In this document: positions 60,324 to 63,555 of the stretch, in pieces
Numbering within the stretch: position 1 is the stretch's first letter
Layout: every line of letters starts with the position of its first letter
Source: Krasilnikoviella flava
Lineage (GTDB): Bacteria > Actinomycetota > Actinomycetes > Actinomycetales > Cellulomonadaceae
Length of the DNA stretch: 64,000 nucleotides
NCBI RefSeq assembly: GCF_900167525.1
Contig: NZ_FUZQ01000007.1
Span: 62,001 to 126,000, forward strand
Direction of reading: 5' to 3'
Translations under genes and position numbers: made by a program
Notes under the pieces: model-generated
Told to the model about the DNA's origin: nothing
What the model saw: the letters and a program-made list of their open reading frames with translations, nothing else
Databases searched by the model: none

Positions 60324-61979
60324 TCATTCCGCGGGCGGCACGACCGGGGTCGGCGTGCCGCCCGTGATCCGCACCAGCTCGTCGTACGAGGTCGGGAAGA
60401 CGGTCTTCGCGTGGCCGGCGGCGGCCCACACGACGTCGTGGCCGCGCAGGTCGACGTCGACGAGCGTGCGCACCGGGGCGGGGTGGCCCACGGGCGCGAC
60501 GCCGCCGATCACCTGGCCCGTGGCGTCGCGCACCGTCTCCTTGCTCGCCCGCGCGAGCCGGCCGCCGAGGCGCGAGCCGAGGTAGTCGGTGTCGACGCGG
60601 TGCGCGCCGCTGGTCAGGACGAGCACCGGCGCGTCGTCGAGCGTGAAGACGAGGGAGTTCGCGATCGCGCCGACCGGGACGCCGAGGGCCTCGGCAGCGC
60701 GCGCGGCCGTGGTCGCGTGGTCGTCGAGCCAGCGGATCTCCCCGTCGGCACCCTCGGCGTCCAGGGCGGTACGGACCCGGTCGACGGCGGGGTGCGAGGG
60801 CGCGTGGTCCGGCGCCGTCGCCACGACGGTCGGCGTGGCCTGCCCGGTGGTGGCCTGCTCGGTGGTGACCGCGCCGGTGGTTGCCGCGGCGGGGAGCTCG
60901 TCCTCGGGCGTGACGTCGTCGCCGGAGAGCCACCGCAGCCAGACGGTGCGGGGGTCGCCCTCGAGCACGAGAGCCCGCACCAGCAGGGTCAGCGGGATCG
61001 CGAGGATGGCGCCGAGCGGGCCGATGACGAAGGTCCAGAAGACCACCGACACGAAGCTCAGCGTGAGGCTCAGGCTCACCGCGTCCGACACGAACTTCGG
61101 CTGCACCAGCACCTGCAGCACCACGTTCACCACGCAGTAGACCGCCCCGACCGCGAGGGCCAGCGGCCAGCCGCCCACGACGAACGCCATGATGACCGGC
61201 GGGATGAGGCCCAGCACGAAGCCGATGTTCGGGATGAAGTTGGTGACGAACGCGAGGATCGCCCACACGACGGGCGCGGGCACGCCGAGCAGGGCCAGCG
61301 CGAAGCCGTCGACGATCGCGACGACGGCGCCGAACGAGGCGTTGACGACGAAGTACCGCCGCACGCCCGAGCTGAACCGGGTGGCGCGCGCGATCTGGGC
61401 GGAGTGCGTCGCGCCGAACACGCGGGACGCGGTGGCGTACCGGGCGGCGTCGGCGGCCATGAAGATCGCGTACGCGAGGACGAAGAAGAGCGCGGTCGCG
61501 ACCGCCAAGACGATGCTGCTCACGCTCCCCGCCACGGCGAGCATGCGCGACGGCTCCACGAACGACGTCGCGGCGTCGGCGATCTGGGCGTCCAGGCCCA
61601 GGGCGGACAGCTGTGCCGCGATCTCGGCGACCGACTGCTGGAGCTGGCCGAGGTACTCGCGCACCAGGCCGGCGAACTGGAAGCCGGCGAACACCAGCAT
61701 CGCGAGCAGTGCCGCCAGGATGAGATAGGCGACCACGATCACGGCGGTCGTCGCGGCCCAGCGCGGCCACCCCCGGGCCTCCAGCGGGTGGCGCACGGGG
61801 TGGCAGATGATGACGATCACCGCGGCGAGGAACACGGGGGCCAGGACGTCCGACGCCCAGTACATCCCGGCGAGGACCAGGACTGCGGCCCCGAGGGACA
61901 GCAGGGTGCGGGTGGCGGGGTTGAGGCCGCCGTGGTCGGTGGTCGGGGTGCCGGGGCCGGTCGCCGGGGTCGAGGTCAC
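60324..61979 (-). CDS. AI-2E-family transporter fused to a YbaK/ProX-type deacylase domain
   Basis: The protein is 551 aa. Residues about 25-360 are an AI-2E family membrane protein: six or more helices with LAAVIVIICHPVRHPLE, FGAVVAIVDGFALALLGVPAPVVWAILAFVTNFIPNIGFVLGLIPPVIMAFVVGG and FVIGPLGAILAIPLTLL. A Thr/Ala-rich linker (about 365-397) leads to a YbaK/aminoacyl-tRNA-editing domain (about 398-545; IRWLDDHATTAARAAEALGVPVGAIANSLVFTLDDAPVLVLTSGAHRVDTDYLG, PVGHPAPVRTLVDVDLRGHDVVWAAAGHAKTVFPTSYDEL). AI-2E members include AI-2 exporters and Na+/H+ antiporters; YbaK domains hydrolyse mischarged tRNA. I know no function for such a fusion. Confidence 0.88.
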   Translation of the reverse strand: MTSTPATGPGTPTTDHGGLNPATRTLLSLGAAVLVLAGMYWASDVLAPVFLAAVIVIICHPVRHPLEARGWPRWAATTAVIVVAYLILAALLAMLVFAGFQFAGLVREYLGQLQQSVAEIAAQLSALGLDAQIADAATSFVEPSRMLAVAGSVSSIVLAVATALFFVLAYAIFMAADAARYATASRVFGATHSAQIARATRFSSGVRRYFVVNASFGAVVAIVDGFALALLGVPAPVVWAILAFVTNFIPNIGFVLGLIPPVIMAFVVGGWPLALAVGAVYCVVNVVLQVLVQPKFVSDAVSLSLTLSFVSVVFWTFVIGPLGAILAIPLTLLVRALVLEGDPRTVWLRWLSGDDVTPEDELPAAATTGAVTTEQATTGQATPTVVATAPDHAPSHPAVDRVRTALDAEGADGEIRWLDDHATTAARAAEALGVPVGAIANSLVFTLDDAPVLVLTSGAHRVDTDYLGSRLGGRLARASKETVRDATGQVIGGVAPVGHPAPVRTLVDVDLRGHDVVWAAAGHAKTVFPTSYDELVRITGGTPTPVVPPAE

Positions 61980-62022: not shown

Positions 62023-63207
62023 TCAGATCCAGCGCTTCCAGCGGAACACGGCGAACAGCGCCACGCTCACGCTGAGCATGGCCACGAGGGCCGCCGGGTA
62101 GCCCCACGCCCAGTGCAGCTCGGGCATGTCGTCGAAGTTCATCCCGTAGACGGTGCCCACCAGCGTCGGGGCGAAGAGGATGGCCGCCCAGCCGGAGATC
62201 TTCTTGACCTCCTCGCCCTGACGGATGCTCACCTCGGTGAGGTGGGTCATCTCCTCGTTCTGGCGCTGGGCCACGAGCGTGGCGTTCACGGTGAGGATGT
62301 CGCGCAGTGCGGCGCGGAACGACTCGACACGGTCGGCGACCTCGGTGAGGTGGTCGGCGACGTCGCGCAGGTACGCCTGCATCTCCTCGGTGACGCCGTA
62401 CTTCTCAGCACCCTTGGCCAGCGAGCCGCAGACGCGCTGCAGGGGGCGCACGGCCCGCTGGAACTCGACGACCTCGCGGGAGAGCTCGTAGATGCGCCGC
62501 GAGACCGCCGCGTCGCCGCCGAACACCTCGGACTCGATCTCGTCGATGTCGCCGTCGAGCCCTGTCACGACGGGGGCGTAGTCGTCGACCACGCGGTCGA
62601 CGATCGCGTAGAGCACCGACTCGGGGCCGCGGGCCAGCATGGCGGGGTGCGCCTCGAGGTGGGTGCGCACCGCGGCCAGGTCGGGGCACGCTCCGTGCCG
62701 CACCGTGACGACGAAGTCCGGGCCGACGAAGACGTGCAGCTCGGAGAACTCCACCTCCTCCGCTTGGTCCAGGTACCTGGCGGCGTGCAGCACGACGAAC
62801 AGCGTCTCGCCGTAGCGCTCGATCTTGGGCCGCTGGTGCGCGACGATCGCGTCCTCGACGGCGAGCGGGTGCAGGTCGAACTCACGGGCGAGCGAGGCCA
62901 GCTCGGTCTCGTCGGGACGCTCGAGCCCGATCCACGCCATCCCGCCCGGGTGGGCGCGCAGCTCGCGGAACGTGTCGGCGAGACGGGTGAAGCCCGCCAC
63001 CCGGCGCCCGTCGGCGTCGTACAGGGCGGACTCGACGATGGACGTCCGGCCGGGCAGGTCGCGGCGGTCGGTGTCGGTGCGGGCGCTGCCGAGGCGCCCG
63101 CCGGCGCCGCTCGCGGGCGTGCCGCGGCGGGGGCGCAGCGCGCCGAGCAGGGGGCGGGTGCGGACCGTGCGGGAGCTGGTGACGGCGCGGGTGGAGGTGA
63201 CGGACAT
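62023..63207 (-). CDS. corA: CorA-family magnesium/cobalt transporter
   Basis: The protein is 394 aa from ATG 63207. After a basic N-terminal stretch comes the cytoplasmic funnel domain (ALYDADGRRVAGFTRLADTFRELRAHPGGMAWIGLERPDETELASLAREFDLHPLAVEDAIVAHQRPKIERYGETLFVVLHAARYLD). Two membrane helices end the chain (KKISGWAAILFAPTLVGTVYGMNFDDMPELHW, AALVAMLSVSVALFAVFRWKRWI) with the selectivity motif YGMNF. It forms a pentameric Mg2+ channel. The 5' leader has a 13-codon Pro-rich ORF (63365-63406) and hairpins (63314-63357), suggesting Mg2+-responsive control. Confidence 0.94.
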   Translation of the reverse strand: MSVTSTRAVTSSRTVRTRPLLGALRPRRGTPASGAGGRLGSARTDTDRRDLPGRTSIVESALYDADGRRVAGFTRLADTFRELRAHPGGMAWIGLERPDETELASLAREFDLHPLAVEDAIVAHQRPKIERYGETLFVVLHAARYLDQAEEVEFSELHVFVGPDFVVTVRHGACPDLAAVRTHLEAHPAMLARGPESVLYAIVDRVVDDYAPVVTGLDGDIDEIESEVFGGDAAVSRRIYELSREVVEFQRAVRPLQRVCGSLAKGAEKYGVTEEMQAYLRDVADHLTEVADRVESFRAALRDILTVNATLVAQRQNEEMTHLTEVSIRQGEEVKKISGWAAILFAPTLVGTVYGMNFDDMPELHWAWGYPAALVAMLSVSVALFAVFRWKRWI

Positions 63208-63313
63208 GGCGGACTCCGAGCGTGCATCTGGGCGTGCAGGGACGAGGGACGGTCGTCGGTCCCGCGACTGCGGCTGGGAGGCACCCGGGATCGTCAGGGG
63301 TGCTCGGAGATCG

Positions 63314-63357
63314 GTGGCGCACCGGTGCGCCACGGCCGCCCGGCGAAGGCCGGGCGG
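63314..63357 (-). promoter_or_regulatory. Terminator-like hairpins in the corA leader
   Basis: Two perfect inverted repeats in tandem: CCGCCCGGC/GCCGGGCGG (63336-63344 with 63349-63357, loop of 4) and a 20-bp palindrome at 63314-63333 (GTGGCGCACC and its complement). They begin 8 nt after the stop of the leader ORF and lie about 110 nt before corA, the layout of a transcription attenuator. Confidence 0.6.
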
Positions 63358-63364
63358 GGAGCCG

Positions 63365-63406
63365 TCAGTCGCGGCTCGGACTACTGGGAGGCTCGCTACG
63401 GGTCAT
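63365..63406 (-). CDS. Leader peptide of corA (13 aa)
   Basis: ATG 63406 follows AGGGAGGT at an ideal distance and encodes MTRSEPPSSPSRD, then TGA. It has Glu-Pro-Pro and Ser-Pro in a very short peptide. Acidic/proline-rich leaders such as enterobacterial MgtL (with EPDP) destabilise the ribosome at low Mg2+ and thereby raise expression of a Mg2+ transporter; that mechanism is well studied in MgtL, and applying it here is inference. The peptide ends right before the hairpins, so ribosome position would decide their folding. Confidence 0.65.
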   Translation of the reverse strand: MTRSEPPSSPSRD

Positions 63407-63555
63407 GTGCGCGCACCTCCCTCGTCGTCCGCGGCGGTCGCCGCTGCTGCTCAGGCCGTCGGCCAGCATAACCGCGCTCGCGCGCCGGGGCCACGCCCGG
63501 GCGGGGGCGGGCAGGGTGATCTCCGCGACGTCGGCGAGGAGTCGGTGGCGGGAGA

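Follow-up and report, generated by a model that had tools for sequence, protein, structure and literature searches.

A conserved Glu-Pro-Pro-Ser leader reading frame upstream of corA and mgtE, very probably a translation-based switch for magnesium uptake

The window analysed here is a stretch of 64,000 nucleotides from Krasilnikoviella flava (contig NZ_FUZQ01000007.1). Close to its far end, on the minus strand, lies a gene for a CorA-like Mg2+ transporter. Downstream of corA, a gene on the same strand (60324-61979) encodes a fusion of an AI-2E family permease with a YbaK-like aminoacyl-tRNA editing domain at the C-terminus (Pfam PF01594 and PF04073). The initial annotation had placed a 13-codon reading frame with a strong Shine-Dalgarno (SD) sequence about 160 nt ahead of corA. 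This upstream open reading frame (uORF) is confirmed at 63406-63365 and its SD at 63421-63415; the measured distance from the uORF stop codon to the corA ATG (63207) is 157 nt, and the identity of CorA is backed by Pfam PF01544. The uORF comprises thirteen codons plus TGA (ATG ACC CGT AGC GAG CCT CCC AGT AGT CCG AGC CGC GAC TGA) and encodes MTRSEPPSSPSRD. The features discussed below, in the order of transcription, are:

63465..63470, minus strand: possible -10 element TATGCT, weak, picked by eye; TAGACT-like hexamers lie there in relatives
63415..63421, minus strand: strong SD of the uORF, GGGAGGT; GGAGGT or GGGGGT is kept in relatives
63387..63420, minus strand: predicted SD-sequestering hairpin, GGAGGT (63420-63415) paired to GCCTCC (63392-63387) around a loop that holds the start codon (alifold, pair counts)
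63365..63406, minus strand: uORF MTRSEPPSSPSRD; its core varies at third codon positions only, one species excepted
63383..63394, minus strand: core codons GAG CCT CCC AGT (Glu-Pro-Pro-Ser); Glu-Pro-Pro invariant in 58/58 unfiltered leaders, AGT in 58/58
63366..63374, minus strand: uORF tail CCGCGACTG, predicted 5' arm of a long-range helix (alifold consensus, double change in Myceligenerans)
63359..63377, minus strand: putative short hairpin, arms GAGCCG/CGGCTC, stop codon inside the loop (complementarity above shuffles; pairs in the consensus of genus g98)
63336..63357, minus strand: inverted repeat 1, arms of 9 bp, starting 7 nt past the uORF stop; not conserved
63314..63333, minus strand: inverted repeat 2, arms of 10 bp without spacer; not conserved in the genus
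63262..63270, minus strand: CAGTCGCGG, predicted 3' arm of the long-range helix, a block kept among variable sequence in Isoptericola leaders
63208..63364, minus strand: C-rich, G-poor segment, candidate Rho-loading region (base composition)
63214..63217, minus strand: SD of corA, GGAG; pairs with uORF TCCGAG in the g1 consensus fold
62023..63207, minus strand: corA, CorA-like Mg2+ transporter of 394 aa (Pfam PF01544, E=8e-62)

The window leader RNA is predicted to fold more stably than dinucleotide shuffles of itself (z = -3.5). A consensus scan of this leader returned no sigma-70 consensus promoter, and a scan for intrinsic terminators returned none; the TAGACT-like hexamers of relatives stand roughly 60-90 nt before the uORF.

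The initial annotation had named a lack of conservation of the reading frame as grounds for refutation, and the reverse was found. A search of 18 genomes of the window's genus, its own among them, recovered the uORF in nearly letter-identical form in all 17 Isoptericola loci that have upstream sequence, the window's included; across these 17 loci the encoded amino acid differs at codon 11 only (Ser, Val, Gly or Asn). In the same family, corA is preceded by the uORF in further genera, among them Myceligenerans, Promicromonospora, Antribacter, Xylanimonas and Puerhibacterium; the peptides encoded there include MTRSEPPSSPSRG, MTRSEPPSSPNRS, MQRSEPPSSPRRG, MRSEPPSDSR..., MDGEPPSSPIR and MSGEPPSSTRPAS. 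When 59 leaders were selected by corA orthology alone, from eight genera of the window's family and a second family (f106), 58 were found to contain the uORF. The 59th (L056) retains Glu-Pro-Pro and has lost the following Ser: a deletion of 1 nt in the C-run of the uORF shifts the frame after Glu-Pro-Pro (MRSEPPVVPAAADARR...).

Over a wider range, a uORF of the form [EQ]PP[SG] with an SD is present in 72 of 171 corA leaders, representing eight GTDB families, against an expectation of 0.03 from dinucleotide shuffling. All 11 corA leaders sampled from f106 contain it (MRSEPPSHAPQG...), as do 5 of the 10 sampled from family f104 (MSQPPSTN and similar); the class-wide sample of corA orthologues adds families f105, f24, f98, f14 and f21. 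The exact core pattern, run over about 85,000 species genomes, returned 38 loci: corA lies immediately downstream in 36; for a 37th, in a Modestobacter metagenome-assembled genome, the contig confirmed this; the 38th was discarded as a chance match in a proteobacterial bin. Klenkia (MRSEPPSSPEVPAA) and Modestobacter, which we take to be members of the Geodermatophilaceae, also have the uORF before corA. At least nine families carry the leader before corA, and two carry it before mgtE. The uORF is absent from many Micrococcales and Streptomyces-like corA genes, and a pattern search of the whole phylum turned up no convincing example beyond the class.

The genes that follow the leader bear on its function. 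The initial annotation had described a corA leader: it does precede a Mg2+ transporter gene, but it is not specific to corA. The DNA pattern GGAGGTN{5,14}RTGN{3,9}SARCCYCCNAGT, applied without regard to the adjoining gene, matched in 27 of 326 genomes of the class and in 12 of 91 genomes of one genus (that of G970), and the reversed pattern yielded 0 matches in either search. A looser pattern used in the window's own genome gave 12 sites versus 24 for its reversed control, which indicates that SD, start codon and Glu-Pro-Pro alone are unspecific and that it is the AGT-containing pattern that is specific. The matches resolve into 39 distinct loci, 26 of which precede corA, nine mgtE and two an ABC permease gene; of the remaining two, one has an IS110-like transposase gene separating it from its gene, and the other, within a gene, was set aside as a chance match. 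The mgtE leaders encode MRSEPPSRRPRG..., MRSEPPSHHPPRR... and MRSEPPSPAPRG..., and the identity of mgtE was confirmed on three (PF01769, PF03448, CBS). As proteins, CorA and MgtE are not related and are assigned to different Pfam entries (PF01544 and PF01769), and hence the factor that they share is the ion: the existence of two target families speaks for a connection with Mg2+, not with descent of corA. No other observation argues as strongly for a place of the leader in Mg2+ homeostasis.

The less usual loci merit a brief description. The two leaders before an ABC permease gene (L302 and L305) begin with GTG and continue as LYGEPPSYPRRPR or LYGEPPSCPRLPR; the L302 protein is a binding-protein-dependent ABC permease (PF00528) with unassigned substrate, and these permeases are a candidate third kind of target. 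At the interrupted locus (L308) the leader is intact and, by eye, the transposase gene fills the place of the downstream gene on the opposite strand. Four mgtE leaders from two genera of f106 (L281, L284, L285 and L287; g384/g354) have a different shared stretch, MRRRSSxTDxEP[SC]HS-like, preceded by a GGAGGTG SD where this is seen; they possibly represent a second leader type.

The pattern of variation shows that the uORF is conserved as a protein code. Within the orthology-selected set, codon positions 1 and 2 of Arg-Ser-Glu-Pro-Pro are invariant, the exception being a His codon in one leader, and the third positions vary in all five codons. As variation in the core is confined to third positions, with this one codon in one species excepted, the uORF is evidently translated. 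The core [E/Q]-P-P-S(AGU) stands 2-4 codons past the uORF start, and the peptides are mostly 8-20 residues long, their C-terminus and length being free. Ser after Pro-Pro is encoded by AGT in all 58 uORFs of the orthology set and in 71 of 72 overall. Coding sequences of the window use AGT for 0.34% of Ser, CCT for 3.9% of Pro and GAA for 2.3% of Glu codons; despite this low usage the three rare codons are retained in leader cores. The choice of CCT and GAA fits a GGAGGU:ACCUCC pairing, which would mask the uORF SD and leave the start codon in the loop. The AGT codon falls outside this helix, and AGU after Pro-Pro would presumably be decoded slowly, through wobble. The TAG within AGTAGT is not kept in f106, and on this ground a programmed -1 frameshift onto it was ruled out.

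The conserved RNA element is predicted to be a hairpin in which the uORF SD pairs with the uORF's own Glu-Pro-Pro codons. Fold prediction and pair counts both place the SD in a stem, as in leaders of the mgtL/corL type, and 98.6% of cells are paired over 24 sequences. RNAalifold of the Isoptericola leaders recovered this hairpin together with a helix joining the uORF tail to CAGTCGCGG, a block that lies 109-152 nt past the uORF start in 16 of 17 Isoptericola leaders and is complementary to the tail CCGCGACTG. Between Isoptericola and Myceligenerans one pair of the long-range helix has changed on both sides (CCGCGACTG/CAGTCGCGG versus CCGCGGCTG/CAGCCGCGG), and f106 leaders have an alike arrangement of structures built from different sequences. 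Good support for the helix is limited to Isoptericola/Myceligenerans and one genus of f104. A duplex energy test over all genera gave a modest result (Stouffer about -3.6, with values close to zero in many genera), and for this reason the long-range part of the model is supported in part; the competing leader pairings are present in Isoptericola/Myceligenerans and weak elsewhere. Complementarity in the stop-codon hairpin reaches 5.14, versus 4.10 in shuffled windows (sd 0.13). The segment between uORF and corA has mean C and G contents of 0.47 and 0.30 in Isoptericola, compared with 0.37 and 0.35 upstream of corA genes that have no uORF, a composition suggestive of a Rho-loading region.

The closest parallels are found in enterobacteria. 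The mgtA and corA leaders possess a uORF with Pro or acidic residues, an SD inside stem A and Rho-dependent termination; in Escherichia coli and Salmonella, this termination reduces transporter expression when mgtL or corL is translated efficiently, and ribosomes fail at the EPDP of mgtL when Mg2+ is low (PMC11552253, PMC11282234). The mgtL-mgtA and corL-corA leaders resemble the present one in having a short uORF before a Mg2+ transporter gene, Pro near its start (acidic residues also in mgtL) and the SD in a stem. Unlike them, it encodes [EQ]PPS where mgtL has EPDP, differs in sequence and in the organisms that carry it, is shared by corA, mgtE and perhaps an ABC permease gene, and conserves a rare AGU; its Mg2+ and Rho roles, moreover, are here extrapolated.

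Very probably, the Glu-Pro-Pro-Ser uORF before corA and mgtE is a hitherto undescribed switch that acts on magnesium uptake through translation. As the leader anatomy corresponds in its main pieces, the same logic as in mgtL/corL is proposed: the leader would act as a leader-peptide attenuator that couples expression of Mg2+ transporters to the passage of ribosomes over [E/Q]-P-P-S(AGU), a reading to which we assign a probability of roughly 55%. At low Mg2+, ribosomes would stall or fall off at this core, upon which the uORF tail would pair downstream and the transporter mRNA would be made. At adequate Mg2+, ribosomes would complete the uORF and the C-rich segment would stay open, leading to early termination, probably by Rho. 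For the direction of the Mg2+ response and for the Rho step, mgtL/corL served as the model; both are unproven. A more ambitious formulation, which we hold tentatively and at slightly under even odds, is that actinomycetes possess a ribosome-based Mg2+ sensor of their own, without sequence relationship to mgtL, in which a nascent [E/Q]PP facing a conserved slow AGU would control the two unrelated transporter families CorA and MgtE and perhaps mark the uncharacterised ABC permease as another transporter connected with Mg2+.

How the core is read is the point at which a different account has to be weighed. The initial annotation had invoked acidic, Pro-rich leaders that destabilize ribosomes at low Mg2+. 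The proline part of this holds throughout, with Pro-Pro conserved in all 72 leaders; acidity is not universal, the preceding residue being Glu in 67 and Gln in five, as in the MSQPPSTN peptide of f104. As Gln replaces Glu there, ribosome destabilization by acidic and Pro residues is only one option, and poly-proline pausing rather than acid-driven destabilization may be the actual reading. It might then be EF-P or translation capacity, not Mg2+, that decides the outcome of a pause at Pro-Pro with a slow AGU in the A site. This would account for Pro-Pro as the most constant part of the leader, for the tolerance of Gln and for the near-universal AGU, a codon very rare in the genome. On the other hand, the leader targets two unrelated families of Mg2+ transporters, which makes Mg2+ the likelier signal; a pausing sensor of this kind is rather unlikely, with some weight nonetheless.

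It is improbable that the leader works as RNA only, with the SD-masking hairpin as a Mg2+-stabilized translational or transcriptional switch and the peptide incidental. The hairpin is nearly always paired in Isoptericola and its neighbours, and in Myceligenerans/Antribacter an A-U pair of it has become G-C through changes on both sides; AGT and CCT are kept at the nucleotide level, and AACCTCC stays unchanged while Glu gives way to Gln. Against this, the core varies at third codon positions only, several genera have the hairpin broken by an A.C mismatch and yet retain Glu-Pro-Pro, and the 1-nt deletion of L056 still leaves Glu-Pro-Pro in frame. Classical attenuation by prolyl- or seryl-tRNA charging, to which the Pro codons and the rare AGT Ser codons might appear to lend themselves, is very doubtful: there are just two adjacent Pro codons and no run, no intrinsic terminator hairpin with a U-tract follows the leader peptide, and the targets are not amino-acid genes. 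A small functional peptide acting in trans might explain the conserved N-terminal residues, but with a short peptide, a free C-terminus and length, and a leader nearly always in cis to a transporter gene, it is hardly credible.

The attenuator proposed here also differs from the leaders known in Actinobacteria and from the one described for mgtE. The M-box (ykoK) riboswitch of Mycobacterium tuberculosis is likewise a leader connected with Mg2+ in an actinobacterium and combines uORFs with anti-SD pairing and Rho-dependent termination (PMC12810186); here the conserved motif sits in the uORF itself, and no M-box aptamer is present in the leaders searched. In the LEU element of the actinobacterial leuA leader, leader-peptide codons also pair with an SD and there is no obvious terminator (PMC1262725), but the codons are for leucine, the SD is that of the gene rather than the uORF's own, and the target is not related to Mg2+. 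The mgtE motif is a predicted leader element upstream of mgtE, reported from Thioalkalivibrio only and regarded as a candidate riboswitch rather than a uORF (PMC11109978). The window leader and 12 related loci gave no match to Rfam 15, M-box included. No description of the Glu-Pro-Pro-Ser leader was found in the searchable open-access literature, from which subscription papers may be missing, and no account of corA regulation in the phylum in the literature searched; the earlier statement that no described actinobacterial equivalent of this form was known agrees with these searches.

If the proposed attenuator is correct, Mg2+ sensing through translation of a proline leader either evolved separately in these organisms or is far older than thought. 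A leader that spans two unrelated transporter families might be used to predict Mg2+-related genes, the ABC permease being an example, and the AGU conserved behind Pro-Pro gives a clean way of telling whether peptide, codon or hairpin is the thing read.

The tandem inverted repeats behind the uORF had been proposed as the structural partner of the Glu-Pro-Pro leader. Both perfect repeats exist, beginning 7 nt after the stop codon, but they are not conserved within the genus, and no U-tract accompanies them (63357-63314). The leader region that bears them is highly variable among the Isoptericola genomes; as a conserved regulatory partner they were rejected on this ground, and it is the hairpin between SD and Glu-Pro-Pro codons that is conserved instead. 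The GCGCACCGGTGCGC palindrome of the window leader (63314-63333) is absent from the other Isoptericola species sampled, and recurs in near-identical form in most Promicromonospora leaders.
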